A stretch of 35,294 bases of DNA from a virus. Positions within the stretch are counted from its first letter, which is position 1. The number at the start of each line of letters is the position of its first letter. This document shows positions 13,343 through 35,175 of this stretch, piece by piece. Location of the stretch: positions 1 to 35,294 of the IMG/VR virus record IMGVR_UViG_3300020205_002074; one strand, 5' to 3'. The notes under the pieces were generated by a model. The model saw only the letters and a list, made by a program, of their open reading frames with translations. It made no database searches and was not told where the DNA came from. The position numbers were made by a program, and so were the translations under genes.

Positions 13343-13969
13343 ATGGCATCAGCATCATTAACAAACATGTCCGTGGCAGCAGACGGGTCACCAGCAAACC
13401 AGGGCTTGTTAATGCCCAAACTGCAATATAGATTTAGAGTTATATTCTCAAATTTTGGAGTAGATAAGGCATCAACAGTATTAACACAACAAGTAGTAGA
13501 TTGCTCACGCCCTACTGTTACTTTTGGTGAAATTACATTGCCTATTTATAATTCAACTTTGTATTTGGCTGGTAAACCAACTTGGTCTCCTACATCTATT
13601 AATCTTAGAGATGATGCCGGAGGCGGAGTATCTAAATTAGTAGGGCAACAATTGCAAAAGCAAATGGACTTTATGGAACAAGCCAGTGCTGCAACTGGAC
13701 AGGATTATAAATTTCAAACTAATATTCAAATACTAGATGGTGGTAACGGTACCGCAGCGGTTGGTGTATTAGAAACATGGCAATTGTATGGTTGCTTTTT
13801 AGTATCTGCTAATTACAATACTTTAAATTATGCAAATAACGAGGCAGTAACAATAGGACTATCTATTAGATATGACAACGCTGCTCTTACCCCAGATGAT
13901 AAAAATGTTGGTGGAACATTTGCTCGTCAATTAGGCGGTGCATTAGTAAGTGGTGTAGGCGCCGGCTAA
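13343..13969 (+). CDS. 19: Tail tube protein gp19
   Basis: A 208-residue protein. The N-terminal part LMPKLQYRFRVIFSNFG and VVDCSRPTVTFGEITLPIYN match the T4-type tube subunit, whose beta-barrel stacks into the inner tail tube. Further support comes from the order (sheath followed by tube), the length (T4 gp19 is 163) and the central INLRDD motif. The sequence between residues 95 and 140 is longer than in T4. The ribosome site AGGAG is 9 nt before ATG. Its own promoter predicts high expression, as expected for the most abundant tail protein. Confidence 0.85.
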   Translation: MASASLTNMSVAADGSPANQGLLMPKLQYRFRVIFSNFGVDKASTVLTQQVVDCSRPTVTFGEITLPIYNSTLYLAGKPTWSPTSINLRDDAGGGVSKLVGQQLQKQMDFMEQASAATGQDYKFQTNIQILDGGNGTAAVGVLETWQLYGCFLVSANYNTLNYANNEAVTIGLSIRYDNAALTPDDKNVGGTFARQLGGALVSGVGAG

Positions 13970-13984
13970 TTAATCGTAAATTAG

Positions 13985-15202
13985 ATGGCTGGATTTTTTC
14001 AAGACTTATTAAAAGGTGCGACTGATTCAATAGGCAGTCGCACTTTTTTGCGTGATTATACCCATGCTTCTAAAACGTTTAGGTCTAACGGGTATCAGTA
14101 TGCACCAAAATTAAAATTCTTATTTCATGTGTACTTTGACATTAATACATCAGCCTATGCTCAAAATGTAAGTACTGGTGCTAATTTTGGATTGCTAGTA
14201 AAATCAGTGAGCCTTCCAAACTTTACTTTTGCAACACATGAGTTAAATCAATATAATCGTAAAAGAATTGTTCAAACAAAAATTAAATACGAACCGATTT
14301 CAATTAAGTTTCACGATGATAGTGGAACTGCTCAAGGACCTACTGCCGGGGGCATTATACACCAACTTTGGAAAGCATATTACACTTATTATTACAAAGA
14401 TGGAACTAAACCCAATGTCATTTTAAGTGGAGCAAGGGGAGCATCTGCTTTTGCTGACAATGGTCAACCAGCCGGTGCATCTAATTATAATCAACGAACC
14501 ACTTATACTCCGTCAATAACCGGAAATGATGATTGGGGCTATATAGGTGAAACCACATCATCAGCAGTTAAACAACCATTTTTTAATAATATTACTATTT
14601 TTGGATTTAATCAACATAACTATACAGCATATACTTTAATTAATCCGCTGCTTACTAAAATGGGACAAGATACTTATAGTTATTCTGAGGGCAACGGTAC
14701 TATGGAAATGTCAATGGATGTCAATTATGAAACCGTGGTATATAATGAAGGTGCAATGGATGGAAATTCCCCAGGTAATATTGTTACTGGGTTTGGTGCT
14801 GACGCCAATTATGACAGAACACTAAGCCCTATTGCTCAATTGGGTTCTAATAGTAATGTTATGGGAAAAGGTGGATTGATAGATAGTGCAGGAGGATTTG
14901 TTTCGGCACTTAAAGAAGGTAGATTACTTGATGCAGCAAAGGCAGCTACCGGAATTTATAATAATGCTAAAAATGGTCAACTACAAAAAAATATTATTTT
15001 AGAAGCACAGGGTGCAATTACTGCTGCTATCAGAGGTGCTGCAAATCCTTTAAATAATAATCCTTTTAACTTTCCAACAAAGGCTTCATCCCCTAGTGTT
15101 ATAAATACTAACGGCGTCAGCGGTCCCGGATTAGCAACTTCAACACCTATAGGCACCATATCAACTGCAGGACAACAAATTGGCGGGGGCGGTAGAGATT
15201 AA
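13985..15202 (+). CDS. Second tube-like tail protein
   Basis: A 405-residue protein. The N-terminal 250 residues show tube-fold features like gp19: APKLKFLFHVYFDINTS, LLVKSVSLPNFTF, NQYNRKRIVQTKIKYEPISI and FHDDSGT, the last comparable with INLRDD in gp19. Paralogues of the tube protein in T4 include gp48 and gp54, which start the tube on the baseplate, so a baseplate-tube junction or tail-terminal role is likely; which one is unclear. The C-terminal 150 residues are Gly/Ala/Asn-rich and flexible. There is no good ribosome site in the 15-nt gap after gp19, so expression probably depends on coupling to gp19. Confidence 0.6.
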   Translation: MAGFFQDLLKGATDSIGSRTFLRDYTHASKTFRSNGYQYAPKLKFLFHVYFDINTSAYAQNVSTGANFGLLVKSVSLPNFTFATHELNQYNRKRIVQTKIKYEPISIKFHDDSGTAQGPTAGGIIHQLWKAYYTYYYKDGTKPNVILSGARGASAFADNGQPAGASNYNQRTTYTPSITGNDDWGYIGETTSSAVKQPFFNNITIFGFNQHNYTAYTLINPLLTKMGQDTYSYSEGNGTMEMSMDVNYETVVYNEGAMDGNSPGNIVTGFGADANYDRTLSPIAQLGSNSNVMGKGGLIDSAGGFVSALKEGRLLDAAKAATGIYNNAKNGQLQKNIILEAQGAITAAIRGAANPLNNNPFNFPTKASSPSVINTNGVSGPGLATSTPIGTISTAGQQIGGGGRD

Positions 15203-16020: not shown

Positions 16021-16503
16021 ATGACAAAAAAATTGCAAGCATTATTTGAGTTACCCGAAGATGAAATACAATCTCTTAGTGTTCCTATTCCAGACGGTGC
16101 AGAAGATATAACTATAGGTGCGTTAAATGCGTTAGAAAAGATAGACCAATCATTACCTCAGGTACGAGGATTAGATGCAAGTGACACTGAATTAGATGAA
16201 TTAGCACGAATGGCAGTAGATAGTTTTAAAGATTTAAGTGATTTAGGTATGCAAGTTGATAGTAGATTTAGTAGTGAAATCTTTAATGTAGCAAGCACTA
16301 TGTTAGGACATGCAATTACAGCAAAAACGGCTAAATTAAATAAAAAATTAAAAATGATTGAATTGCAGTTAAAAAAGGCGCATTTAGATCATAAAATTAC
16401 TTCAAAAGTAGAAGAAGTGGAATCAACCCCACTTGGTACTGGACATGCATTAGACCGAAATGAATTATTGAAAATGTTGAATGGAAAAACAAACAACGAA
16501 TGA
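16021..16503 (+). CDS. 16: Small terminase subunit gp16-like
   Basis: A 160-residue acidic helical protein. The N-terminal ELPEDE...SVPIPDGAED stretch and the central coiled-coil helices (LDELARMAVDSFKDLSDLGM and SEIFNVASTMLGHAITAKTA, then NKKLKMIELQLKKAHLDHKI) fit T4 gp16. gp16 forms ring oligomers that recognise concatemeric DNA and activate the packaging ATPase gp17. Length agrees with T4 gp16 (164). Unlike T4, the large terminase gene does not follow. There is no ribosome site: the ATG lies at the predicted +1 of a late promoter, and a 7-bp hairpin abuts it in read-through RNA. Confidence 0.75.
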   Translation: MTKKLQALFELPEDEIQSLSVPIPDGAEDITIGALNALEKIDQSLPQVRGLDASDTELDELARMAVDSFKDLSDLGMQVDSRFSSEIFNVASTMLGHAITAKTAKLNKKLKMIELQLKKAHLDHKITSKVEEVESTPLGTGHALDRNELLKMLNGKTNNE

Positions 16504-16528: not shown

Positions 16529-17152
16529 ATGAAAAGCCTAAAATATTATATAACCGAAAGTGTAAAGACATATGATTACACTATCAAAATTGCGGGTGAC
16601 GTTGATAAAAACTTTTTAGATATGTTTATATACAATCTAAACAAGTTTGATCCAATTAGAATTAGCGACCCTATTAAGACACCTATTCAAAAAGATCCGT
16701 ACGGGTTTCCTAATGAAAGCAATCAATCAGTAACTATAATTAAAGCAGATTTTAGATATCCAGCCACAGAGCCAATGATACAACAAATTGCTCAATTATT
16801 GGGATATAATGTTAATATGGTAAGAGTAGTATGTACTTCTTTCAATGATAGTATTAATGGTGAAACTGATGAGTACGCCAATCAAATGAAAAACAGTCCA
16901 GTACTTACGCATGAAGAAATGGAAGATCAATCAGGTTCCAGAGCAGCAAATAAAGCATACGGAGATTCATATTTAAGTTCAATTAAAGACCAAGCAAAAG
17001 GTTCAAAAATTGATATACCGTATGCAGGTAAAAGAACACCAGATAGTTTTGATCCATTCAAGCCAAATTTAGATGATAAAACGTTAGGTAATAAAAGTCC
17101 GATGACAAAAATAATTCGCCCTAAAAACCCAGCGACTGGTGCAAGAGCATAA
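16529..17152 (+). CDS. Virion-associated protein with capsid-targeting-like N-terminus
   Basis: A 207-residue protein. The start at 16529 is chosen because CAGGA at 16517-16521 and the late element precede it; the upstream ATG at 16481 lies inside gp16. The N-terminus MKSLKYYITES closely resembles the T4 capsid-targeting peptide MKTYQEFIAEA, with Glu at position 10, after which the prohead protease cuts. Residues 12-110 alternate beta and alpha like a ferredoxin fold (KTYDYTIKIAGDVDKNFL, TIIKADFRYPATEPMIQQI, GYNVNMVRVV). The C-terminal half is polar, Lys/Pro-rich and probably disordered. The family is not recognised. Its position after terminase and before the large modular protein matches where T4-like phages keep prohead core and internal proteins. 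Confidence 0.6.
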   Translation: MKSLKYYITESVKTYDYTIKIAGDVDKNFLDMFIYNLNKFDPIRISDPIKTPIQKDPYGFPNESNQSVTIIKADFRYPATEPMIQQIAQLLGYNVNMVRVVCTSFNDSINGETDEYANQMKNSPVLTHEEMEDQSGSRAANKAYGDSYLSSIKDQAKGSKIDIPYAGKRTPDSFDPFKPNLDDKTLGNKSPMTKIIRPKNPATGARA

Positions 17153-17170: not shown

Positions 17171-19924
17171 ATGAACATGTTAGATTTAATGAACAAGATG
17201 ACTGAACTTAGTGAGGCCAAGTCTACTAATAATGCGTTTACCGGAAATTGGAAAGATCCAGAAGATGCCAAGGGTAAATCTATAATTCATAAAGGTAAGT
17301 ATGGTACTGCATATCAAGGTGAGCCTGATGACTTATCTACTGATGACACTAAAAAAACTAAAAAAGTTGCACCAGCAGACGGTGAGAAACGCGGCCGTGG
17401 ACGACCTGCAAAAGGGTCAGATAGTTCAGGCAAAACAACATCACATGATACACAAACATTATCTAATTTTATGATTGGTAATAAACCAAGTAAAGCAGTT
17501 GATAAATTACCAAAAACAAAAAGTAAAACGTTGAAAGATTGGTTTGAAAGATTAGATACTGCATTAAATGAAGATGGTCAATTTACTGTAAAACCGGCTG
17601 CACCGGGCGCATCAGATATTATGGGACCTGATGGTAAAAAAATAGGAACAGCATCAACCCCGGCTGCTGCCCAAGCGGTAAAAAACGGAGAAGTAAATTT
17701 TGATAAAGAACAAGGTATGGCGGAAGGCGACATTGGAAAGCATAATAATGCTACAACAGGGTTTGCAGCGTTAGTTAAAAAACTTACACCTAAATATGGT
17801 GTTAAAGGTGCAATGCGTATTGCTGGTAGTCAACTGAAAAAAATTAAAGAAGCGGATATGCCACCCAATGATAGTCTATTCAGTCCTATTAGTGAAGGAA
17901 ACCCGTTCGCCCCTATAGTGAATTTAGTTAAAGGTGGTACTAAAGTCTTACCTAAACCCACTGGTCGACCGGGGATGCCGCCTGCTCAAGATGCCAGGAC
18001 AGATGCTGTATCCCAAGCAAGAAATGCTAAAAGAAATGCTGATGACGAAATGTGGGCAGCAAGACAAGGCACACAACCTTCAGCTGCCAGGACAGATGCT
18101 GTATCCCAAGCAAGAAATGCTAAAAGAAATGCTGATGACGAAATGTGGGCAGCAAGACAAGGCACCAAACAACCAGCATTAGAAAGCAAAAAAGGTGCAA
18201 AGCCAGACTTTTTAGATATGGACAAAGACGGTGACAAAAAAGAGCCAATGAAGAAAGCAGTCGCTGACAAAAAAGCAGGACCAAAGAAAGGTGTAAATCC
18301 TTTTGCTAAAAAGAAAATTTCTGAAGGTAAGGTAAAAGAAATTGCAATAGATTTAGAAGAAATGACGCCGGCGGAATTTAAAAAGAAATATAAAATGACA
18401 AAGGCTGAAATGGAAAAAAATATGAATACTGACACTAACGATAATAAAAAAGATGTGGCAAAAGGCTCTTTAAATGAGTTAAGCAGCAATACTCTGTCAT
18501 CTTATGGCAAAAAAGCTGAGAAGTCAAATGATAAAAAACTGGACAAAGCCGCAGGTCACTCAGAAAAAGCAACTAATTTGTATTCCAAGGGCACCTCTTC
18601 TGCTGTAGCCAAGTCATTTGACCATGAGGACAAAGCAAATAAATTGCACAATCAAGTTAACAAGCGTAATGATAGTATGGATCAAGCTGCTGGAAAACTT
18701 AAAAAGCAGATGAGCAAAGGTATGATGGAAGGCGTTCGTCATTCAGATGCTGCACATCTACGAGGTAAGGCACATGCAATGGGCGGTGAAAATTATAACT
18801 GCCGATATACACCGGGCACCAATGAAGCCAATATGTACCATATGGGATTCAAAGAAGGGCTTGATGAGTGTTATGGTCAAATGCCAATGGAGAGCTATGT
18901 CGAGGAAGAATTTACTCCGGAAGGAGAAGTTGGAAATATGCCACTAATGACTGATGAAAATTATATGATGGATGAAAGTCCTTTTAGTTGGGCTGCTAAA
19001 AATACTCCAACAGGAAAACACTTTACATTAGCCGGGCATGATTTTACAAAAACAGCGGCAGAAAGTATGAATCATATGAATCATCCGTTTATGGAATCTT
19101 TAGATAAACAATTAAATGCTTTACTTAATGACGATATTAATGAAGGAATGACTGTATCTATTTCTAAAGGTCAACAAGGTACTCCGGATTCAGTTAGTGT
19201 GTCTGCTCAAGACTCTGAGGCAGAACAATTACTTTCTATTATTAAATCAGCCGGCTTAGGCTTGTTTGGTGGCGATAATGATTCAGGCGATGAACCTTCT
19301 TCTGCTATGTCTATGCCGGGAGTTTCTATTGCTGACGGTGGTGCTGAACTTGATAGCAATATTAACGTGGTAAACGATCATGATGGTATGTTGGATTTAA
19401 TTCGCAAAATGACAGGACAAGGTCCTGCTCAATCAGATGACAACGATTATGAAAGTGAAGAACACGAACACGGTCATGATGAAGAAGAGTGTGGCGATTG
19501 CGGTAATAATCCATGTGATTGCGAGGCAATTGATGAAGCCCAAACCTCAAATCAAGCAGAATTTATGGCTACTGAAGATAATGCACCGGATTCCGGTGCT
19601 GATAACACCAATGCTGATGTCGCCGGTAATGCAGCAACTAATAGTGCAATAGCAAAATCAGACCAACAAAATCCAACAATAACAACAAATGAAGATGAAA
19701 TGGAAGAAGACTTAAATGAATCATATGCTAATAGTGCTGAAAACACATTTGAGGCTGATATAGAATTTATGACTAAGGTTATTACCGGTGGATTAAATAA
19801 ACAAAAATCAACTGGTCAATCTACTATCCCAGTCGTGGCAAGTCAAAAAAATCGTTTGGGTGAACCAATGCAAGAATCTACTGCATTACTACATGATTGG
19901 AAAAAATTAAGTGGTATTACATAA
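17171..19924 (+). CDS. Large modular acidic protein, possible internal-head polyprotein
   Basis: A 917-residue very hydrophilic protein after AAGGA at 17158-17162. It reads as a string of short modules, many beginning just after an aliphatic-x-Glu or Met-x-Glu step: LNEDG (about 131), MAEGDIGKHNN (about 183), ISEGK (about 383), LNELSSNTLSSYGKKA (about 434), MMEGVRHSDAAH (about 518), MDESPFSW (about 600), INEGMTVS (about 656), MQESTALLHDW (near the end). An AT-hook-like KRGRGRPAKG lies near 78, a calcium-loop-like DMDKDGDKKE near 349, and a His/Cys-rich acidic stretch (ECGDCGNNPCDCE) near 775. Residues 275-332 hold a recent 31-residue duplication. I recall individual modules from uncultured marine phage proteins. 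A prohead core or packaged polyprotein cleaved by the prohead protease is inferred. A terminator follows. Confidence 0.55.
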   Translation: MNMLDLMNKMTELSEAKSTNNAFTGNWKDPEDAKGKSIIHKGKYGTAYQGEPDDLSTDDTKKTKKVAPADGEKRGRGRPAKGSDSSGKTTSHDTQTLSNFMIGNKPSKAVDKLPKTKSKTLKDWFERLDTALNEDGQFTVKPAAPGASDIMGPDGKKIGTASTPAAAQAVKNGEVNFDKEQGMAEGDIGKHNNATTGFAALVKKLTPKYGVKGAMRIAGSQLKKIKEADMPPNDSLFSPISEGNPFAPIVNLVKGGTKVLPKPTGRPGMPPAQDARTDAVSQARNAKRNADDEMWAARQGTQPSAARTDAVSQARNAKRNADDEMWAARQGTKQPALESKKGAKPDFLDMDKDGDKKEPMKKAVADKKAGPKKGVNPFAKKKISEGKVKEIAIDLEEMTPAEFKKKYKMTKAEMEKNMNTDTNDNKKDVAKGSLNELSSNTLSSYGKKAEKSNDKKLDKAAGHSEKATNLYSKGTSSAVAKSFDHEDKANKLHNQVNKRNDSMDQAAGKLKKQMSKGMMEGVRHSDAAHLRGKAHAMGGENYNCRYTPGTNEANMYHMGFKEGLDECYGQMPMESYVEEEFTPEGEVGNMPLMTDENYMMDESPFSWAAKNTPTGKHFTLAGHDFTKTAAESMNHMNHPFMESLDKQLNALLNDDINEGMTVSISKGQQGTPDSVSVSAQDSEAEQLLSIIKSAGLGLFGGDNDSGDEPSSAMSMPGVSIADGGAELDSNINVVNDHDGMLDLIRKMTGQGPAQSDDNDYESEEHEHGHDEEECGDCGNNPCDCEAIDEAQTSNQAEFMATEDNAPDSGADNTNADVAGNAATNSAIAKSDQQNPTITTNEDEMEEDLNESYANSAENTFEADIEFMTKVITGGLNKQKSTGQSTIPVVASQKNRLGEPMQESTALLHDWKKLSGIT
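17992..18165 (+). repeat. Exact 81-bp in-frame direct duplication, period 93 bp
   Basis: Bases 17992-18072 and 18085-18165 are identical, separated by a 12-bp linker. The encoded unit is ARTDAVSQARN then AKRNADDEMWAARQGT. Perfect identity, including third positions, indicates a recent duplication. Confidence 0.9.
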
Positions 19925-21569: not shown

Positions 21570-22130
21570 ATGAATAATACTCAACTTATTAATGAAGGAT
21601 TAGATTATCATGACATGGAGGGTCAATTTGAACCCAAATTAAGCGTAGATGAATACTCGGCTAAAATGGGAGAAGATAGCGATGTAGTTACTTTAGCATT
21701 TATTATCCATAGTGAACAAGCCGGCAATGATATAGTAGATTGGTTTGAGCGTGGATATGATTGGGTATTAGATGCTAGTGTAAGCGAGGGTGAAATTGTT
21801 CCGGGAAAATATTTAGTATTCGTGGAAATGAATCGTAGAAGCACTGTACCCAACAGAATTATTACATTGTTATCTGATTTGACAACTTTAACAAATATTC
21901 CAGTTAATGATTGGACTATTTCAATTGACGATGAAGAATATGAACCAGATGTTGAGGTTTTAAAACAAGTTATAACTATTAGTCCACATGAATATCGTAA
22001 AGAAGAAGAACAAGAAGAACAAGAAGAAGGATTAAATGAAATGAGAATTCGTGCAGGATTAGAACCAAAGCAGTTCTTTGGTGAACAAGATGCCGAATTA
22101 AAAAACTTTAAGGCTATGGCAGGATTATAA
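21570..22130 (+). CDS. Unknown phage protein with Glu/Gln-rich linker
   Basis: A 186-residue protein; AGGA at 21558-21561 precedes the ATG. The N-terminus MNNTQLINEGLDYH carries a short aliphatic-Asn-Glu step like other possible capsid-targeting peptides in the window. Residues 20-135 form an alpha/beta domain (DVVTLAFIIHSEQAGNDIVD, WVLDASVSEGE, GKYLVFVEMNRR, RIITLLSDLTTLT). Residues 145-158 are nearly all E and Q. The C-terminal LNEMRIRAGLEPKQFFGEQD, then AELKNFKAMAGL, is a helical tail that could be a binding peptide. It is co-directional and tightly spaced with both neighbours. Function is unknown. Confidence 0.6.
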   Translation: MNNTQLINEGLDYHDMEGQFEPKLSVDEYSAKMGEDSDVVTLAFIIHSEQAGNDIVDWFERGYDWVLDASVSEGEIVPGKYLVFVEMNRRSTVPNRIITLLSDLTTLTNIPVNDWTISIDDEEYEPDVEVLKQVITISPHEYRKEEEQEEQEEGLNEMRIRAGLEPKQFFGEQDAELKNFKAMAGL

Positions 22131-22745: not shown

Positions 22746-23534
22746 ATGGATCATTACACAACATTAGGGGTAACTAAAAATGCTAACTCTACAGACATTA
22801 AAAAAGCCTATAGAAAATTAGCAAATCAATTTCACCCAGATAAAGGCGGAGATACTGCCCAATTTCAAAAAATTCAAGCAGCGTATGATACGTTAAGCGA
22901 CTCTTTAAAAAGACAAGAGTATGATAATCCTCAACCTGCAGGGTTTGGTGGATTTCCAGGAGGATTTAGTTTTAGTACCGGTTCAGGATTCCCTGATATA
23001 TTTGGTGATTTGTTTAGACATCATGCTCAGGCTGCTCACCGACAAGCACAAATATATAGAACCATTATGGAAATTACATTGGAACAAGTATACTCCGGTG
23101 GGCAACAATCATTGAAACTTCAATCCCCAACAGGCGTTCATATGGTAAACATAAATATACCAAAAGGAGTGACTGATGGTGCTCAAATGCGAATAGAAAA
23201 TGTAATTAAAGATGTTGTTCTTATTGTTGAATTTAGAATTCATAAACATTTAAAATTTGATAGAAATGGTAATGACTTAATATGTAATTACCCTATTTCA
23301 GTATTAGATTTGATTGTGGGAACTGTATTTCAATTTACAACTATTGCTGGCATTACACTTGAAGTTACTATACAACCCAAAACACAACCTCATATGCAAT
23401 TAAGAATGGCAGGGCATGGATTGCCAATTCTAAATTCAAATCAAGTAGGAGACCAAATACTATTGTTAAAACCATTCATACCAGATATAATTAACGATAC
23501 GATTATCAATAGCATTTTGCAACATAAAATATAG
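22746..23534 (+). CDS. dnaJ: DnaJ/CbpA-like Hsp40 co-chaperone
   Basis: A 262-residue class B J-protein. The J domain (1-62) has DHYTTLGVTKNANSTDIKKA and the essential HPD at 30-32, which stimulates the ATPase of DnaK. A Gly/Phe-rich linker follows (about 64-90: GFGGFPGGFSF). Two C-terminal beta domains with EITLEQVYSGG, NINIPKGVTDGAQMRI and KHLKFDRNGNDLIC bind client protein. There is no zinc-finger domain, as in CbpA/Sis1. The phage protein would act with the host DnaK. It starts 8 nt upstream of clpA's start region and shares its promoters. The ATG has no ribosome site and lies close to the predicted sigma70 start. Confidence 0.9.
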   Translation: MDHYTTLGVTKNANSTDIKKAYRKLANQFHPDKGGDTAQFQKIQAAYDTLSDSLKRQEYDNPQPAGFGGFPGGFSFSTGSGFPDIFGDLFRHHAQAAHRQAQIYRTIMEITLEQVYSGGQQSLKLQSPTGVHMVNINIPKGVTDGAQMRIENVIKDVVLIVEFRIHKHLKFDRNGNDLICNYPISVLDLIVGTVFQFTTIAGITLEVTIQPKTQPHMQLRMAGHGLPILNSNQVGDQILLLKPFIPDIINDTIINSILQHKI

Positions 23535-23541
23535 GAACCTG

Positions 23542-25806
23542 ATGAATAATTCGCCCGAAATTGAAAATATTATTGAACAAGCAATTGAATTTGCTAAAGA
23601 AAAAAAGCATCAATATTGTACCATAGAACATTTACTTTTATCTTTAATTAAACATACTCCATTTAAAAACTGCTTAATTAGTTTTGGAATTGATTATGAT
23701 ATGTTTTTTAATGAGTTAAATGCATATGTAGATGGATTGCAATCCATTGTAACTACAGAAGACCCAGTAGTTCCAAGGAGAACAAATTCATTAGAACGGG
23801 TAATGAATCGTAGCGTAACTCAAGTATTGTTTACTGGTCGTCGGCAAGTTACAACTATTGATTTATATTTGAGTATTGCCTCTGAGGGTAATAGTCATGC
23901 TCATTATTTCTTATTAAAGTATGGAGTCAATAAAAATGAATTTATTCAACATTGGCAAAAAACTTATAAAGGTGCGGAATATACTTCCAAATTATCTGAA
24001 AATCAAGCCGATGAAATTTTAGAAGAATATACAATTAATCTTACTAGTATAGCAAAACAAGGTAAATTAGAACCTCTAATCGGTCGTACTAAAGAAATTG
24101 ATGATATTATTAATGTTTTGGCTAAACGATTTAAATCTAATGTTCTTATGGTTGGAGATCCGGGTGTTGGTAAAACTGCAATAGTAGAAGGTATTGCCCA
24201 AGCAATTATTAATTTAGAAGTACCTGAATTTTTACAAGGACATGAATTATATTCTTTAGAAATCGGATCTTTACTCGCCGGAAGTAAATATCGTGGAGAT
24301 TTTGAAGAAAAGGTAAAACATGTTATTGATGCCCTTAATACAAAAAAGAAAGCAATTCTTTTTATTGATGAGGCTCATACAATGCAAAGTGGTGGCGGGT
24401 CTAATAACGGAAGTGTAGATTTTGCTAATATGATTAAACCTGCTATTACTAAAGGAACATTAAAAGTAATCGCAAGCACTACTTGGGAAGAATATTACGA
24501 ATCTTTTGAAAAAGATCGTGCCCTAATGCGTAGATTCTATAGAGTTTCAATTGATGAACCTTCACATGACTCTACTATTCGTATCCTTAAAGGATTGAGT
24601 ACAAGATTAAATGATTTTCATACAGTTGAAATTACTGATGACGCAATTAATACTGCTGTAGATACTGCCGATAGGTATATACATGATAGAAAAAATCCAG
24701 ATAAGTCTATTGATTTATTGGATGCGGCTTGTGCTAAACAACGTGTATTAGAAAACAAAGGCGCTCTTATTACTAAAGAATTGATTTATGAGCAAGTAGA
24801 AAAATTTACAGGTGTTCCTGCTGATAAATTAAGTGGTGACAATTTTACTAGAATTAGTACGCTAGAAGTTAATGTAAAAAGTAAACTATACGGACAAGAT
24901 GAAACTGTTGATAAAGTACTTGAACGTGTATATGTTAGTTTTGCTGGAATTAATAACGATACTAAACCTATTGCTAGTTTCTTATTCTTAGGGCCAACTG
25001 GAACGGGTAAAACTGAACTTGCTAAACTATTAAGTAAAAATCTAGAAATGCCATTACTTAAATATGATATGTCAGAATATAGTGAAAAACATTCTGTATC
25101 AAGTTTAATTGGTCCGCCCCCTGGCTATGTTGGATTTGGTGATAGTCAAGTTGGCGGTGGTAGACTTATATCTGATTTAAGTAAAAATCCACATAGTGTT
25201 ATGTTATTTGATGAAGTTGAAAAAGCACATCCGGATATATTTAATATCTTTTTACAATTACTAGATGAAGGAAGAATTACCGGCAGTAATGGTAAAATGG
25301 TAAGTTGTAAAAACACCATTATCATTATGACTAGTAATTTGGGATCAAGTGATGGTGAAAAGAATAATATTGGATTTGGTTCACAAGAAAAAACAGGAGA
25401 AGATGATAGGGCCTTAAAGGAATTCTTTAAACCAGAATTTAGAAATCGGTTAGACATGGTTTGTAAATTTAATAAACTTGACCAACTTTCTATTAAGAAA
25501 ATTGTCATTAAATTTACTGAAGAGTTGAAGAAAAGTTTAATAGATAAGCATAATATTTCATTAACTTTATCTGAAGCCGCAATTGAGCATTTGGGTGATA
25601 AAGGATATGACAATAAATTAGGTGCTAGGCCGTTAGCAAGAAAAATTGATGAACTTATTAGAGTTCCGCTTAGTAAAAAGATTTTATTTGACAAAATTAA
25701 AAATTCTAATATAACCGCAATATGTGAAAACGATGAAATTACATTTAATGTGGTTCAAAAATCAACAGCCAGGGTAAATGAAAATGGGATTATTGAAGTT
25801 AGTTAA
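23542..25806 (+). CDS. clpA: ClpA-like Hsp100 unfoldase
   Basis: A 754-residue AAA+ protein, almost the length of E. coli ClpA (758). The N-domain (1-145) has QYCTIEHLLLSLI. AAA-1 has Walker A GDPGVGKT at about 205 and FIDEAHT at about 273. AAA-2 has GPTGTGKTE at about 483 and LFDEVEKAHPD at about 555. GARPLARKI lies in the C-terminal small domain. The ClpB middle coiled coil is absent, which with the spacing supports ClpA. In AAA-2 the tripeptide IGF at 610-612 lies where ClpA carries its ClpP-docking IGL loop (ClpX has IGF), so it probably docks on host ClpP. No phage clpP is in the window. The gene follows dnaJ by 7 nt with AGGAA before the ATG. Confidence 0.9.
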   Translation: MNNSPEIENIIEQAIEFAKEKKHQYCTIEHLLLSLIKHTPFKNCLISFGIDYDMFFNELNAYVDGLQSIVTTEDPVVPRRTNSLERVMNRSVTQVLFTGRRQVTTIDLYLSIASEGNSHAHYFLLKYGVNKNEFIQHWQKTYKGAEYTSKLSENQADEILEEYTINLTSIAKQGKLEPLIGRTKEIDDIINVLAKRFKSNVLMVGDPGVGKTAIVEGIAQAIINLEVPEFLQGHELYSLEIGSLLAGSKYRGDFEEKVKHVIDALNTKKKAILFIDEAHTMQSGGGSNNGSVDFANMIKPAITKGTLKVIASTTWEEYYESFEKDRALMRRFYRVSIDEPSHDSTIRILKGLSTRLNDFHTVEITDDAINTAVDTADRYIHDRKNPDKSIDLLDAACAKQRVLENKGALITKELIYEQVEKFTGVPADKLSGDNFTRISTLEVNVKSKLYGQDETVDKVLERVYVSFAGINNDTKPIASFLFLGPTGTGKTELAKLLSKNLEMPLLKYDMSEYSEKHSVSSLIGPPPGYVGFGDSQVGGGRLISDLSKNPHSVMLFDEVEKAHPDIFNIFLQLLDEGRITGSNGKMVSCKNTIIIMTSNLGSSDGEKNNIGFGSQEKTGEDDRALKEFFKPEFRNRLDMVCKFNKLDQLSIKKIVIKFTEELKKSLIDKHNISLTLSEAAIEHLGDKGYDNKLGARPLARKIDELIRVPLSKKILFDKIKNSNITAICENDEITFNVVQKSTARVNENGIIEVS

Positions 25807-30529: not shown

Positions 30530-31219
30530 ATGAAAATAACACAAATCACAGAAACTACTACTACTAGCGGAAGTATTTCCCCGGTCGCCACTGTATTAGG
30601 GGCAACTCATACACGAGGAAACCCTAGTATATATGGCGGAAAAAAAGTTAAAAGTATGTTTTCTGGTAAAAAAACTAAAGAACCATATGGTAATAGCCTT
30701 CATGAAGGCGTTGAAATTAGTGAACAAGATTTGATTATGATGCCAGGCCTAGGTAATAAAATAAATCCCGGCTTTATTAGTAAACAAGATGATAGAACAG
30801 ATAATGAAATTGCAATGGCTATAAATGATTTGTTTCAATCGGGTAGAAATGCTGAAAAAATTTATAAAATGATTGAAGGTCGTAGCGAAGAGGTAGGACT
30901 TGAGGGTTGGGTACAAGAAAAGATTATTAAAGCAAGTGACTATTTAAATACCGTTCGTGAATATTTAGAAGGACAAGAAATGTCAAATGTAGATGAAGGG
31001 CGACCGTTTAGAGGGGTTGATGGTGCATTTGACAGAGGAGATGATGAACGACATGACTTGGACAGACCAAAAAAGTGGCATGTAGTTATTGATGGAATTA
31101 TTCAATCACAAGGATTCAGTGACAGGGAAGATGCAAATATAGCCGGGCACAAAACACTTGCTGCCAATCCTAATTCTAGAGTAACTCTTAAACAAAAATG
31201 GGCGGATGACTATGAGTAA
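30530..31219 (+). CDS. Unknown protein with possible capsid-targeting N-terminus
   Basis: A 229-residue protein. The ATG at 30530 is chosen over the in-frame start at 30491, which lies upstream of the late element. The N-terminus MKITQITETTTTSGSISPVA starts with a short peptide ending ITE, followed by a Ser/Thr/Gly linker, as expected for a removable targeting peptide. GNPSIYGGKKVKSMFSGKK is a basic Gly-rich stretch. A helical central region (about 88-150) and a C-terminal beta part (KKWHVVIDGIIQSQGFSD, then AGHKTLAANPNSRVTLKQ) follow. I cannot assign a family. Its stop overlaps the next gene's start, so it is translationally coupled to the lysin. Confidence 0.55.
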   Translation: MKITQITETTTTSGSISPVATVLGATHTRGNPSIYGGKKVKSMFSGKKTKEPYGNSLHEGVEISEQDLIMMPGLGNKINPGFISKQDDRTDNEIAMAINDLFQSGRNAEKIYKMIEGRSEEVGLEGWVQEKIIKASDYLNTVREYLEGQEMSNVDEGRPFRGVDGAFDRGDDERHDLDRPKKWHVVIDGIIQSQGFSDREDANIAGHKTLAANPNSRVTLKQKWADDYE

Positions 31220-32843
31220 TATCTTTACTGGAATTTTGCTTAATGAATTATCAACTGATAAATTAGCAAAATATAAAACAGCAGCCAGTGCGGATGCTAC
31301 TAAATCTGATCAAGAAGGTAACTTCAAGCGCGGAGATAAAAGATTTAGTGGTATTGTAAAAGCAACTAATAAACAATTTGCTAATGATGCTAAAAAAGTT
31401 AAATTACCGGAAACAGTAAAAGATGATGAAGATGATGATTATGTAGAACCGCCGGAGTCCACCCTTAATAAGGCTCGCACTGCAGCCGGCATGGCGGGGC
31501 TGGCTTTAACTCCGGCACTAGCAGCACAAACGGTTGGTGCTGGAGCAAAAGCATTAAGTAACCCCGCTGTTGCAGCAACCGCCTTAAAGGTAGCGGGAAA
31601 TCTAGGGGGTAGATTGCTCCCGGCCGCAGGCGCTGCGACAAGTGGGCTCTCGTCTGCATATAGAGCAAGCATGGGTGATTATACTGGATCTGCGATTGAT
31701 GCAGCCTCAGGCGCTGCATCTTTTTGGCCGGGCTTGGGAACAGCTGGTGCACTAGCTGGTATCGGTACTAACTTAGTACGAGACAAATATAACACTGGTA
31801 GTTTTTTCCCGACTGATGAAGAAATGCGTAAAGCATACGGTAAAAAACCAGATGCACAAGTAGCACAAGCAGCAAAATCTACTGCGCCAGCAGCAGCACC
31901 AGCAGCAGCACCAGCAGCAGCACCAGCCGCAAAATCTGCCCCAACCACAAACACCAAGGGTTCTTGGCAAGAAATTTACAATTTAAATAAAACAATCATT
32001 GGGGCTAATCCCAATGTAATTAAACCGGGACAAAAATTAAAATTGCCAAACGGCACAGTATATACCGTAAAGCCCGGAGACACTCTTAGTAAAATTGCAG
32101 CACAATCGTTACAAGAATCAATTTATATGCAATATGATAATGCGCCGTCTGCCATAATGTATGGTTTACTTGAAGCTAGCCAACAATCAGCATCAATTGA
32201 TACACCAAGCGGTCGTGCAATGAGTCCACTAGAGTGGCAGGCATCATTAAGTAATAATCCTGCAGCAGTTGCCGGTGCTGCCTCTTCAAGGATTAGACCG
32301 GCTAGTGCTGCCTCTTCAAGGATTAGACCGGAAGTTGGTGCTGACCATGTAGATAGCACTGTCACTAGTAATACAGGTGACAATATGAGTAAAGCAAAAC
32401 AATCTGCTGAACAATTTTTAGGTCGTAGAATTAGCAATGACGAATGGGACCTTTTACTACGAGCAGTTACGGCTGAAGCAAGCGGCAACACAAAAGAGCA
32501 AGCCTGGGTAATGGGTGTTATATTAAATAGAGCTAGGTCAGGTCGTTGGGGAAGTAGTATCAATAAAGTATTATATGCACCAAGTCAATTTCAAGCAGTG
32601 ACTGGTACTAAGTATAATAGAAATCCAAGTTCTAACTTTACTAGAGGCCCAAATGCATCTCAACTAGCATCTATTGTAAAAGGTGCAATAGAAATATTGC
32701 CAAATGTAGACCAATCAGTAATGAATTTTACAGCGGCTAATAGTGCTGCTTATGGAAGAGGTACTAATATTAATTTTAGAAATAGGTTGTCTGCAAAAGC
32801 AGGCAGTCAACAAATTGGACAAACTATATTTGGTACAGCATAA
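31212..32843 (+). CDS. SleB-type cell-wall hydrolase with split LysM
   Basis: A 543-residue protein. ATG 31212 is preferred to 31206 because GGCGGA then has normal spacing. Residues 1-80 are polar and begin with a possible targeting step ILLNE. Residues 88-190 are Ala/Gly-rich and hydrophobic (PALAAQTVGAGAKAL, FWPGLGTAGALAGIGTNLV). An AAAP linker (225-240) precedes two LysM halves in reversed order (251-300). From RRISNDEWDLLLRAVTAEAS (406) to VMNFTAAN (510) lies a Hydrolase_2/SleB domain: AVTAEASGNTKEQAWVMGVI, LNRARSGRWGSSI, YAPSQFQAV, with E422 the likely catalytic acid. SleB enzymes are lytic transglycosylases acting on peptidoglycan. It could serve lysis, or entry if packaged. No signal peptide is seen. 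Confidence 0.75.
   Translation: MSNIFTGILLNELSTDKLAKYKTAASADATKSDQEGNFKRGDKRFSGIVKATNKQFANDAKKVKLPETVKDDEDDDYVEPPESTLNKARTAAGMAGLALTPALAAQTVGAGAKALSNPAVAATALKVAGNLGGRLLPAAGAATSGLSSAYRASMGDYTGSAIDAASGAASFWPGLGTAGALAGIGTNLVRDKYNTGSFFPTDEEMRKAYGKKPDAQVAQAAKSTAPAAAPAAAPAAAPAAKSAPTTNTKGSWQEIYNLNKTIIGANPNVIKPGQKLKLPNGTVYTVKPGDTLSKIAAQSLQESIYMQYDNAPSAIMYGLLEASQQSASIDTPSGRAMSPLEWQASLSNNPAAVAGAASSRIRPASAASSRIRPEVGADHVDSTVTSNTGDNMSKAKQSAEQFLGRRISNDEWDLLLRAVTAEASGNTKEQAWVMGVILNRARSGRWGSSINKVLYAPSQFQAVTGTKYNRNPSSNFTRGPNASQLASIVKGAIEILPNVDQSVMNFTAANSAAYGRGTNINFRNRLSAKAGSQQIGQTIFGTA
31887..31922 (+). repeat. Three 12-bp units coding for an AAAP linker
   Basis: CCAGCAGCAGCA is repeated three times exactly and a fourth, decayed unit follows. 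It encodes the Ala/Pro linker before the LysM halves; repeat number may vary by slippage. Confidence 0.8.
32275..32331 (+). repeat. Exact 27-bp in-frame duplication, period 30 bp
   Basis: Bases 32275-32301 and 32305-32331 are identical and encode AASSRIRP twice in the linker between LysM and the catalytic domain. Identity at every base suggests a recent event. Confidence 0.85.
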
Positions 32844-32853
32844 GGAATTATAA

Positions 32854-33294
32854 ATGTTAGCAGAAAATTTAAAAGTATTATTGGCAAGTGTTAACTCATT
32901 GTCCATCAAAGCACAAAACTTTCACTGGAACGTAGAGGGGGATAACTTCCCTCAATATCACGAATATTTTGGTAATTTTTATGAAGAAGTATACAGTGCA
33001 GTAGATAAAATTGCTGAATACATTCGTACATTAGATAGTTATAGTCCAGGCAGCTTAACACGCTATACTGAATTAACTATTATTCAAGACCAACTTAAAA
33101 TCCCTCGTGCTGAATTAATGTTTGTTGAATTGTTTGAAGATAATAGCAAGATGATTGAATTACTTAATCATTGCTTTAGTTCTGCTACAGAAGAAAATAA
33201 ACAAGGTATTGCTAACTTTATCGCTGAAAGATTAGATGCTCACGAAAAACATCAATGGCAGCTTAGAAGTATATTAAAAACTGCAAGAGCATAA
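32854..33294 (+). CDS. dps: Dps/ferritin-like protein
   Basis: A 146-residue four-helix ferritin-like protein with AAGGAATT before its ATG. The Dps ferroxidase ligands are all present: H24 in NFHWNV, H36 in QYHEYF, and D51 and E55 in VDKIAEYI. These lie at the inter-subunit iron site where Fe(II) is oxidised with peroxide. Dps proteins form 12-mers that store iron and can coat DNA. There is no long basic N-terminal tail, so DNA binding by the tail is unlikely. A phage copy could protect replicating or packaged DNA from Fenton damage or hold iron during infection. It lies 10 nt after the lysin gene. Confidence 0.85.
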   Translation: MLAENLKVLLASVNSLSIKAQNFHWNVEGDNFPQYHEYFGNFYEEVYSAVDKIAEYIRTLDSYSPGSLTRYTELTIIQDQLKIPRAELMFVELFEDNSKMIELLNHCFSSATEENKQGIANFIAERLDAHEKHQWQLRSILKTARA

Positions 33295-33319
33295 TATATA
33301 TTTACCATAAGGAATTACA

Positions 33320-33739
33320 ATGCGATTTTATGAAATAGAACCTAGATCCAGTACTGAGAAACAATTTGACCTTATTGAGAGTATGGTTGAAAGTTTTGCA
33401 AAACATCATAACATTGACAGCGAGATAATATGGGAAGATTTAGAATCAGTAGATGATTATGAATTATTAACTGAAGCCGCGGCATGGAGAACCAGTAAAG
33501 GAAAAAGTAAAAAAGGTGGATTAAATGCTAAAGGCGTAGCAAGTTATCGTAGAGAAAATCCCGGTAGTAAGTTGCAAATGGCAGTTACTACTAAGCCAAG
33601 CAAACTAAAGCCGGGCTCAAAAGCAGCTAAACGTCGGAAATCATTTTGTGCAAGAATGGGCGGTGTTAAGGGCCCAATGAAGAAACCTAATGGCAAACCC
33701 ACACGTAAAGCCTTGGCTTTACGTAAATGGAACTGTTAA
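33320..33739 (+). CDS. DUF6321-like small basic protein with cleavable-looking N-terminus
   Basis: A 139-residue protein with AAGGAATT before its ATG, the same leader as the dps gene. Residues 1-50 are acidic (MRFYEIEPRSS to VDDYELL). The sequence then reads LLTEAAAWRTSKG, where an aliphatic-x-Glu step meets the basic domain: KGKSKKGGLNAKGVASYRRE, NPGSKLQMAVTTKPSKLKPG, KAAKRRKSFCARMGG, ending ALRKWNC. This basic part is the DUF6321-type module (recollection), about 85 residues with roughly a quarter Lys/Arg, which would suit DNA or RNA binding. An acidic propeptide removed at TE/A by a prohead protease is inferred. The TAA overlaps the next ATG. Confidence 0.7.
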   Translation: MRFYEIEPRSSTEKQFDLIESMVESFAKHHNIDSEIIWEDLESVDDYELLTEAAAWRTSKGKSKKGGLNAKGVASYRRENPGSKLQMAVTTKPSKLKPGSKAAKRRKSFCARMGGVKGPMKKPNGKPTRKALALRKWNC

Positions 33740-34368
33740 TGAAAGCGAATGAAATCACGATTGATGGCTCTAGCCCTTTGGTTGAATTCAGCAAGACCGA
33801 TTTAGGTATACACAAAGAATTAAAAGACAAAGGATATATTCCCATTGGACAACCAGGTGTAGACCAAACTGCATATATTGAACCAGGCAGTGGCTTAATT
33901 CTTAAAATATTTGGGACTCGTCCAGGAAGTAAAACTTTTACAAAAGATCAAAAAATGTTTTTTATCTGGGCTAAATTTTGTATGGATAATTCAACAAATC
34001 TTTTTTTGCCTAAGTTCTTTGGATATGAAAGCTTCACTTATAAAGATTCATTATATTTACAAATTCGTAATGAGAGATTGCAACACAATCCTAAATTAGG
34101 TCGTGCGATTGCTAAACTAGGAGAATATGCCGGTATTGGTTCTATGGATGAACGTAGCACACTAAATTATTTTATAAAAACACAGCGTAATCAATATGGA
34201 ATACTCATACAAACAATTGGCAAAGAAAATGTAATACCGTTGTTAAATACACTAAGCGACTTATATAAAATTGCCAGTAAAAAAGGATATATGTGGGACC
34301 TACACTCAGAAAATGTTATGACTAGAACAAATGGATGGCCAGTGATCAATGATCCCTGGACTATATAA
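33739..34368 (+). CDS. Small protein-kinase-like (phosphotransferase) protein
   Basis: A 209-residue protein. The ATG at 33739 overlaps the previous stop (TAATG); an earlier in-frame ATG at 33727 is inside the previous gene. Kinase-fold hallmarks are visible: a beta strand with Lys in SGLILKIF (K56), YMWDLHSENVM (187-193) matching the catalytic loop HxDxxxxN/DLHxxN of aminoglycoside-phosphotransferase-like kinases, and PVINDPW (D205) as the metal-binding DFG equivalent. The glycine-rich loop is short. The lobe sizes are reduced compared with typical 260-300-residue kinases, so it may be a minimal or inactive kinase. N-terminus MKANEITIDG. The substrate is unknown. Confidence 0.65.
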   Translation: MKANEITIDGSSPLVEFSKTDLGIHKELKDKGYIPIGQPGVDQTAYIEPGSGLILKIFGTRPGSKTFTKDQKMFFIWAKFCMDNSTNLFLPKFFGYESFTYKDSLYLQIRNERLQHNPKLGRAIAKLGEYAGIGSMDERSTLNYFIKTQRNQYGILIQTIGKENVIPLLNTLSDLYKIASKKGYMWDLHSENVMTRTNGWPVINDPWTI

Positions 34369-34371
34369 TAC

Positions 34372-35175
34372 ATGAGAGCCGCTGAATTTAACGAAGGTAT
34401 TTACCCTATTCCGGCTGGGCAGTTCCGGGGTGGGAAGAGTTCATTGGAGATACCCCGAAATTTTAAAAACACTTCAACTAAGTTGCCCGGGGGTAGCGGA
34501 TTTGTGTACACTATTACACCAAGTGGGTATACCACAGAAATAACCATTTGGGATCCCAAAGGACCAGATTATATCAATGCAGCACCCCAGCCTGTTAGGA
34601 AACCCAGAGAAGCACATTGGGCATTTACTGATCGTGTGAAGAATTGGAATAATTCCAAAATTGCCCCCGGACAATTGATTGGTAAACTTGAGATATCATC
34701 AGTAAGATGGTTTCCATTACCCAATGCAGTAGCAGTTGAGGTTATCACTGTTGATGAAGACTATCGAGGTCAAGGTATTGCCAAGGCATTGTATGGCATT
34801 GTATTAACTATCATGAAACTGCCATTGGTTGCTGGCGATTCACAAACACCCGGCGGTCGTATAAATTGGGTTAGTCTTGCCAGTATACCCGGTGTTGAGG
34901 TGAAAGGTTATGTGGGTTTAGAAAAGTACGAACTAGCCCCTAACATGCCTTCACAGGCTAAACGAACTGAAATAAACATTGATACCATCATGGGACAACT
35001 AGGGGGCGATTATATTGGTCAATCACCTACTGGGCACCTCATGTTCTTTGCCTTTGACGTACAACCTAACACAACGGGAAAAGAATTAGAAGCGTATGTT
35101 AAAACTAACATGAGTAAAATATACGGGGACACTAAATTTCGTGCTGGCCTATATGCAACCTGGAGCGGAGCATGA
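34372..35175 (+). CDS. GNAT N-acetyltransferase-like protein
   Basis: A 267-residue protein starting 3 nt after the preceding stop. N-terminus MRAAEFNEGIYPIPAG. Residues 105-165 carry the GNAT core: AVAVEVITVDEDYRGQGIAK, with RGQGIA as the acetyl-CoA pyrophosphate loop (motif A, R/QxxGxG/A), then ALYGIVLTIM. The substrate-binding part (SQTPGGRINW and beyond) and a C-terminal domain (IGQSPTGHLMFFAFDV) are longer than in minimal GNATs. It could acetylate a host or phage protein, a polyamine or an antibiotic-like amine; this cannot be decided. The stop TGA overlaps the ATG of the next gene. Confidence 0.7.
   Translation: MRAAEFNEGIYPIPAGQFRGGKSSLEIPRNFKNTSTKLPGGSGFVYTITPSGYTTEITIWDPKGPDYINAAPQPVRKPREAHWAFTDRVKNWNNSKIAPGQLIGKLEISSVRWFPLPNAVAVEVITVDEDYRGQGIAKALYGIVLTIMKLPLVAGDSQTPGGRINWVSLASIPGVEVKGYVGLEKYELAPNMPSQAKRTEINIDTIMGQLGGDYIGQSPTGHLMFFAFDVQPNTTGKELEAYVKTNMSKIYGDTKFRAGLYATWSGA

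Follow-up and report, generated by a model that had tools for sequence, protein, structure and literature searches.

We concluded that the 917-residue protein encoded at 17,171–19,924 of the window, a 35,294-base virus fragment, is probably a polyprotein that a T4-like jumbo phage targets to its head as an internal (or core) protein and that is cut by the prohead protease. The protein, P0001, would enter the assembling prohead through a short helical N-terminal tail resembling a capsid-targeting sequence; a C-terminal tail resembling the one on the gp22-type scaffold probably also brings it there. During head maturation, a gp21-type protease would cut P0001 after the Glu of Phi-x-Glu steps (Phi, hydrophobic), before Ala, Gly or Ser. 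These cuts would remove both tails, about 15 residues each, and release small beads, perhaps as many as a dozen or so, along with acidic or basic pieces that are disordered. Part of this material may be retained in the head until it is ejected together with the DNA. Phages would swap the beads as cassettes, and some of this exchange would take place right at the cut sites.

The ATG of the reading frame is preceded by an AAGGA stretch. The features of P0001 are given below in window coordinates, with a slash marking each predicted cut.

17171..19924, + strand: P0001 open reading frame, 917 residues, ATG start, open throughout
17171..17215, + strand: N-terminal tail, residues 1–15, MNMLDLMNKMTELSE/A, helix 3–13 and then the first predicted cut
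17387..17416, + strand: AT-hook-like KRGRGRPAKG, residues 73–82, conserved in the family
17570..17572, + strand: predicted cut after E134 (LNE/D, Glu 95% conserved), in a low-pLDDT linker
17585..17683, + strand: bead 139–171, predicted beta-beta-beta-alpha, pLDDT about 84
17708..17728, + strand: linker EQGMAE/G, residues 180–186, predicted cut after E185; DNA GAACAAGGTATGGCGGAAGGC
17762..17839, + strand: helical bead 198–223, then predicted cut after E227 (IKE/A, Glu 100% conserved)
17894..17896, + strand: predicted cut after E242 (ISE/G), 39% conserved
17989..18174, + strand: two tandem 93-nt copies of a 31-residue helical unit, ARTDAVSQARNAKRNADDEMWAARQGTQPS
18215..18244, + strand: DMDKDGDKKE, residues 349–358, Ca2+-loop-like (DxDxDGxxxE) as judged from its sequence
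18323..18427, + strand: predicted cut after E385 (ISE/G, 95% conserved) and the module starting there, KVKEIAIDLEEMTPAEFKKKYKMTKAEMEKNM
18728..18883, + strand: predicted cut after E520 (MME/G) and RMF-like bead 521–571
18974..19072, + strand: predicted cut after E602 (MDE/S) and bead 603–634
19094..19096, + strand: predicted cut after E642 (FME/S), 96% conserved
19142..19249, + strand: predicted cut after E658 (INE/G, 100% conserved) and module GMTVSISKGQQGTPDSVSVSAQD...IIKSAG
19487..19525, + strand: Cys cluster ECGDCGNNPCDCE, residues 773–785, in an acidic disordered region
19535..19537, + strand: predicted cut after E789 (IDE/A), 100% conserved
19718..19720, + strand: predicted cut after E850 (LNE/S), 79% conserved
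19874..19921, + strand: last predicted cut after E902 (MQE/S) and C-terminal tail STALLHDWKKLSGIT

The AT-hook-like stretch, D-x-D-x-D loop, Cys cluster and 31-residue duplication named in a preliminary description of this DNA were all present. Within the AT-hook-like stretch, K73, G75, G77, R78, P79 and K81 are invariant or nearly so in the family, and the tandem copies (17989–18081 and 18082–18174) are 94% identical. The module around DMDKDGDKKE is PHROG 24078 (match 338–369, E 7.7e-6); this 32-residue module was the single PHROGs match to P0001. Pfam gave zero matches for the whole protein, and when 50,697 phage records were searched by tblastn (low-complexity filter on), neither P0001 nor its C-terminal part as query returned anything. 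The description of the protein as acidic held for residues 500–900; residues 1–500 are net basic.

The genes around P0001, on the same strand, belong to the tail and head-completion sets of a phage with a contractile tail. The order in the window is sheath (9726), tube proteins (13343 and 13985) and head closure (15571), followed by PhoH, two virion proteins, a holin-like protein, DnaJ and a ClpA/B-type ATPase. The upstream 160-residue gene at 16021–16503 occupies the position expected of the small terminase, as which it had first been read; hhalign against the T4 gp16 profile gave 0.5%, which lends that assignment no support. The neighbours also bear on the idea that P0001 is an early or late regulatory DNA-binding protein that acts in the infected cell and has nothing to do with the head. 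The conserved AT-hook-like stretch and the Cys cluster speak for such a protein, but the same-strand tail and head-completion genes speak against it, as do both tails and the site pattern, which match head proteins, and we regard it as very improbable.

Several other features of this region were recorded. The tandem tube-like proteins (13343–13969 and 13985–15202) follow an 1184-residue sheath, an arrangement also seen in other T4-like jumbo phages. DnaJ and the ClpA/B-type ATPase lie at 22746–25806, and ClpX-, DnaK- and ClpS-like proteins were also read by eye at 121928–126155 of a related 143-kb contig (G001). A 144-nt repeat (about 3.6 copies, 72% matches) lies within a WFGGGY-type repeat protein beside the tail genes (130–651), and a LysM / cell-wall hydrolase gene contains a CAG-type repeat and a perfect 30-nt duplication (31887–31931 and 32275–32331).

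Central to our reading is the pattern of Glu sites. The x-Glu steps reported earlier at module starts proved to be real and more specific than stated, taking the form [LIM]-x-E followed by A, G or S: P0001 contains 11 of these against 2.3 expected. When the first position was widened to [LIMFV], there were 13 (the strict sites) against 3.4 expected; for both forms, none of 1000 shuffles had a count as high. Control motifs in P0001 were flat, whether the hydrophobic residue was placed at P2 (4 vs 2.3) or P4 (2 vs 2.3) or Asp was substituted for Glu (1 vs 2.6). An [LI]-x-E-type motif is the specificity of the T4 prohead protease gp21, which is known to cut T4 gp22 into several pieces (PMC9026906). 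T4 gp22 itself had 8 [LIM]xE[AGS] sites against 1.6 expected (0 of 1000 shuffles), and the T4 tail, baseplate and terminase proteins gp6, gp7, gp16, gp17 and gp18 showed no enrichment of this motif.

The pattern extended to the P0001 family. Across 56 non-redundant relatives we counted 418 sites against 129 expected; because family members are related these counts are not independent, and the single-protein test on P0001 is cleaner. With the hydrophobic residue at P2, P4 or P5 instead, counts were 0.90, 0.99 and 0.32 times the expectation, and replacing Glu by Asp, Gln or Lys gave 0.33, 1.67 and 1.50 times. The residue after Phi-x-E was A, G or S in 59% of cases with L, I or M at P3, versus 26% where P3 was other than L, I, M, F or V. 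Conservation of at least 80% was found for 8 of the 13 site Glu residues vs 9 of the 55 others (p = 0.002). The first and last sites lay at a median of 15 residues from the N-terminal and C-terminal ends, respectively. E15, the first predicted cut of P0001, is 98% conserved, and all 56 relatives have a Phi-x-E within residues 7–40; going by its sequence, the N-terminal tail may work like a capsid-targeting sequence.

AlphaFold, supplied with the 56 sequences, modelled the chain at low overall confidence (mean pLDDT 56); the parts predicted well were beads at 139–171, 198–223, 273–329, 385–418, 483–568 and 603–634 and end helices at 3–13 and 902–913. Strict sites were in or beside low-confidence linkers in 11 of 13 cases, and 9 of the 13 linkers contained a strict site vs 5.5 expected (p = 0.008). 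Strict sites E520 and E562 were inside predicted helices, and a cut at E562 would split the RMF-like bead. These two helical sites, and the fact that most insertions and deletions fall away from sites, would suit a P0001 that remains an uncut multivalent hub in the virion or infected cell, its Phi-x-E steps being helix ends or linker grammar. Against this, the motif needs Glu, a hydrophobic residue exactly at P3 and A, G or S afterwards, and within the same genomes it is likewise over-represented in the gp22-like scaffold and is the mark of T4-type N-termini (see below). An uncut hub therefore seems improbable to us.

Only one bead of P0001 matched any known fold. Folded alone, bead 521–571 reached pLDDT 86, and its best four PDB matches were all ribosome modulation factor (RMF; 9iot, 6h4n, 4v8g, 2jrm), with Z of 8.3–5.9 vs 2.8 for the next match; TM was 0.73 at about 19% identity. 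Two RMF chains also appeared in an unguided structure search with the whole P0001 chain. Sequence searches gave weak support: Pfam RMF (PF04957) found one of 16 members at E 0.005, and hhalign of the bead against E. coli RMF gave 8.9%. Following the structure match, we accepted that the bead, as modelled, has the RMF fold over its whole domain. Helical matches for residues 267–338 (talin, calmodulin partners and others) were discarded as ordinary two-helix matches.

In viral contigs, queries with the whole protein and with its C-terminal part found first 21 relatives and then 206; the 56 non-redundant members formed the analysed family. Full-length relatives span 667–1157 residues, with both ends in common and a mosaic middle. 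By sheath and ClpA, the closest isolates are the T4-like jumbo phages Phosso, PA5oct/MIJ3 and Atu_ph07, and a gp21-type prohead protease is present in all of them. The aquatic 'moraphages' (PMC12619734), jumbo phages with ClpA, PhoH and a prohead protease, were considered as a group to which the present phage might belong. The slot syntenic to P0001 holds different proteins in Phosso and Atu_ph07, and in MIJ3 an acidic 498-residue protein lacking clear sequence similarity to P0001.

The window is a 35-kb fragment from which gp21 and the other head genes are absent; we infer the gp21 of the present phage from relatives. PF03420 and PF07068 had no match in the first seven contigs, and query A1 had none in 14 contigs, all of these being fragments. 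Three long contigs carrying the P0001 family encode gp21 (E 1e-92 to 1e-95). One 348,701-base relative (G015) has portal (Portal_T4, 2e-103), acidic core protein, gp21 (98540–99166), gp22-like scaffold and gp23 (Gp23, 5e-98) in T4 order, and LAE/S, conserved in three relatives, is a candidate site of propeptide cleavage in its capsid protein. This head block is >200 kb along the contig from the P0001 homologue, at odds with the earlier placement of P0001 among prohead core genes. That positional argument finds no support; the proposal that it accompanied, of a scaffold or internal protein of the prohead being cut into many pieces after Glu, draws independent computational support from the motif, its conservation, the relatives' head genes, the shared tail and the between-bead position of the sites.

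When open reading frames were ranked by site enrichment, the gp22-like scaffold came first and the P0001 homologue third among 340 in G015, and the homologue came first among 153 in G001. The C-terminal motif [KR]x?L[AS]G[IL] occurred in just two of the 340 G015 frames, the scaffold and the P0001 homologue (0.10 expected). A blastp search of the 56 members against all collected open reading frames gave no scaffold match, the tail motif alone being common to both. This gp22-like tail, a site density as in gp22 and an acidic, disordered second half are all consistent with P0001 being a second prohead core or scaffold protein like T4 gp67, gp68 or gp22, whose peptides leave the head and whose modules have no host function; T4 core fragments mostly do leave the head (PMC9026906). 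Such a purely structural role is nonetheless harder to reconcile with the full-head-block relative, whose genes next to gp21 already include those for an acidic core protein and for a gp22-like scaffold, with a fast-changing mosaic, unusual for a size-determining scaffold, and with folded beads, one of them of RMF fold. We consider it unlikely, if the most serious of the alternatives. The mosaic make-up of P0001 and its RMF-like bead would instead favour cargo over core peptides that leave the head.

Other genes of these phages begin like a T4 internal head protein. T4 ipIII starts MKTYQEFIAE/A, and genes of the relatives start MRAKEFIVE/A, MRATEFITE/E and MRSLKQYITE/S. Starts of this type were found in 7 of 153 (G001) and 10 of 340 (G015) open reading frames vs 1 of 694 and 3 of 1381 internal Met positions. 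The candidates in the window were as follows.

16529..17152, + strand: upstream neighbour of P0001, start re-set to MKSLKYYITE/S, T4 IPIII-like N-terminus
21570..22130, + strand: structural protein, N-terminus MNNTQLINE/G
30533..31219, + strand: protein with N-terminus MKITQITE/T; orthologues in L021/L022 carry a P0001 module
34372..35175, + strand: GNAT acetyltransferase, N-terminus MRAAEFNE/G, candidate internal head enzyme

Rows of genes with IPIII-like N-termini (MRAxEFIxE) were seen at 69274–78770 of G001 (L026/L027) and at 30533–35175 of the window. Their products include GNAT, kinase-like, ParB-like and metallopeptidase-like proteins, which are candidate injected enzymes, and some are fused by QGVAEG or NEFITE joints.

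Modules of P0001 also move between genes. Module 386–419, which follows ISE/G, is inserted exactly at NSL[TI]E/G of another gene in two other phages (L021/L022), the recipients being the orthologues of window gene 30533–31219. In the family, 21 of 211 insertions had both ends within 2 residues of a strict site vs 1.4 expected. We rejected the stronger statement that modules are always bounded by sites, since most insertions and deletions do not follow them.

One joint recurs as DNA. The P0001 linker GAACAAGGTATGGCGGAAGGC (17708–17728, EQGMAEG) is one mismatch from a dispersed 21-nt cassette, GARCAAGGTGTGGCGGAAGGC, and is the sole near-match to it in the window. The cassette occurs in at least 120 viral stretches (matches at L138–L257), in frame as E-Q-G-V-A-E-G of a long open reading frame in all 136 matches listed, and conservation around it stops at its 21 bases. 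Among the matches listed there were up to five copies per frame, the contigs being T4-like viral, and 8 of 10 long cassette-carrying contigs encode gp21. At QGVAE sites in loci not chosen by cassette DNA, 12 of 17 had the identical 15 bases, for which G001 codon usage predicts 0.27%. Bacterial and archaeal genomes totalling 257 billion bases gave two matches only, and phage isolates gave none covering most of a 30-nt query containing the cassette. Of 293 distinct linker occurrences, 130 pairs were alike on one side only and 1 pair on both; with anchors 45–60 residues from the linker the pattern reversed, 10–35 pairs being alike on both sides. The point where protein similarity breaks is thus the joint itself. 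With the k-mers in common use, a 21-nt repeat is unlikely to give rise to chimaeric assemblies. The cassette may represent a new kind of linker. In the 153,585-base viral contig L204, a P0001-family protein has four QGVAE joints, and one of its modules, with a joint on both sides, stands between two copies of the AT-hook region.

A broader reading is that an uncultured clade of T4-like jumbo phages builds internal-head polyproteins of interchangeable effector beads in which the linker EQGVAE/G, cleavable by the prohead protease and conserved as DNA in the 21-nt GARCAAGGTGTGGCGGAAGGC, is also the recombination joint, such that new cargo is spliced in, packed, freed and injected; P0001 would contribute one such joint and an RMF-like bead that silences host ribosomes. 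We offer this tentatively and think it somewhat doubtful as a whole. T4 is the model of head maturation, with a few core proteins cut up and a few internal proteins losing a short tail, and the same protease grammar appears scaled up in P0001. What appears new relative to the T4 scheme is that one gene supplies many swappable small products. If true, cut sites would reveal the packaged and injected proteins of uncultured giant phages, the repeated EQGVAE/G joint would show how such cargo could be assembled, and the RMF-like bead would point to the ribosome as a concrete host target.

Among known systems, P0001 is like T4 gp22, gp67 and gp68 in having L/I-x-E sites far above chance, and its relatives encode a gp21-type protease and gp23 as well as a scaffold like gp22. 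Its C-terminal tail is like that of the gp22-like scaffold of its own clade, but beyond this tail there is no sequence homology to gp22, and P0001 is three times longer, is a modular mosaic with folded beads and lies outside the head gene block. The T4 internal proteins IPI, IPII and IPIII and Alt carry a 10-residue capsid-targeting sequence; P0001 has a short helical N-terminal tail ending in a predicted Phi-x-E/A cut, and a start very close to that of IPIII occurs in further genes of these genomes (MRAKEFIVE/A vs MKTYQEFIAE/A). The T4 internal proteins are small single proteins, whereas P0001 has many modules, many predicted internal cuts and a C-terminal tail. In head proteins of phiKZ and SPN3US, cuts are made after Glu behind a short motif, as predicted for P0001 (AXE in the prohead cleavages of SPN3US; PMC10052503), long propeptides are cut several times and internal proteins are ejected. 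P0001 differs in that its P3 residue is hydrophobic as in T4, not Ala, and in its bead-linker-bead layout without a long tail propeptide. Polyvalent proteins of phages and plasmids (PMC5512222) similarly join many unrelated modules in one polypeptide and are probably delivered with the DNA; their domains are large effector enzymes, mostly without prohead-protease sites between them, in contrast to the small beads of P0001 with a site at most joints. Lastly, RMF (PF04957) shares its fold with bead 521–571, a likeness of predicted fold in a bead that sits inside a long protein.
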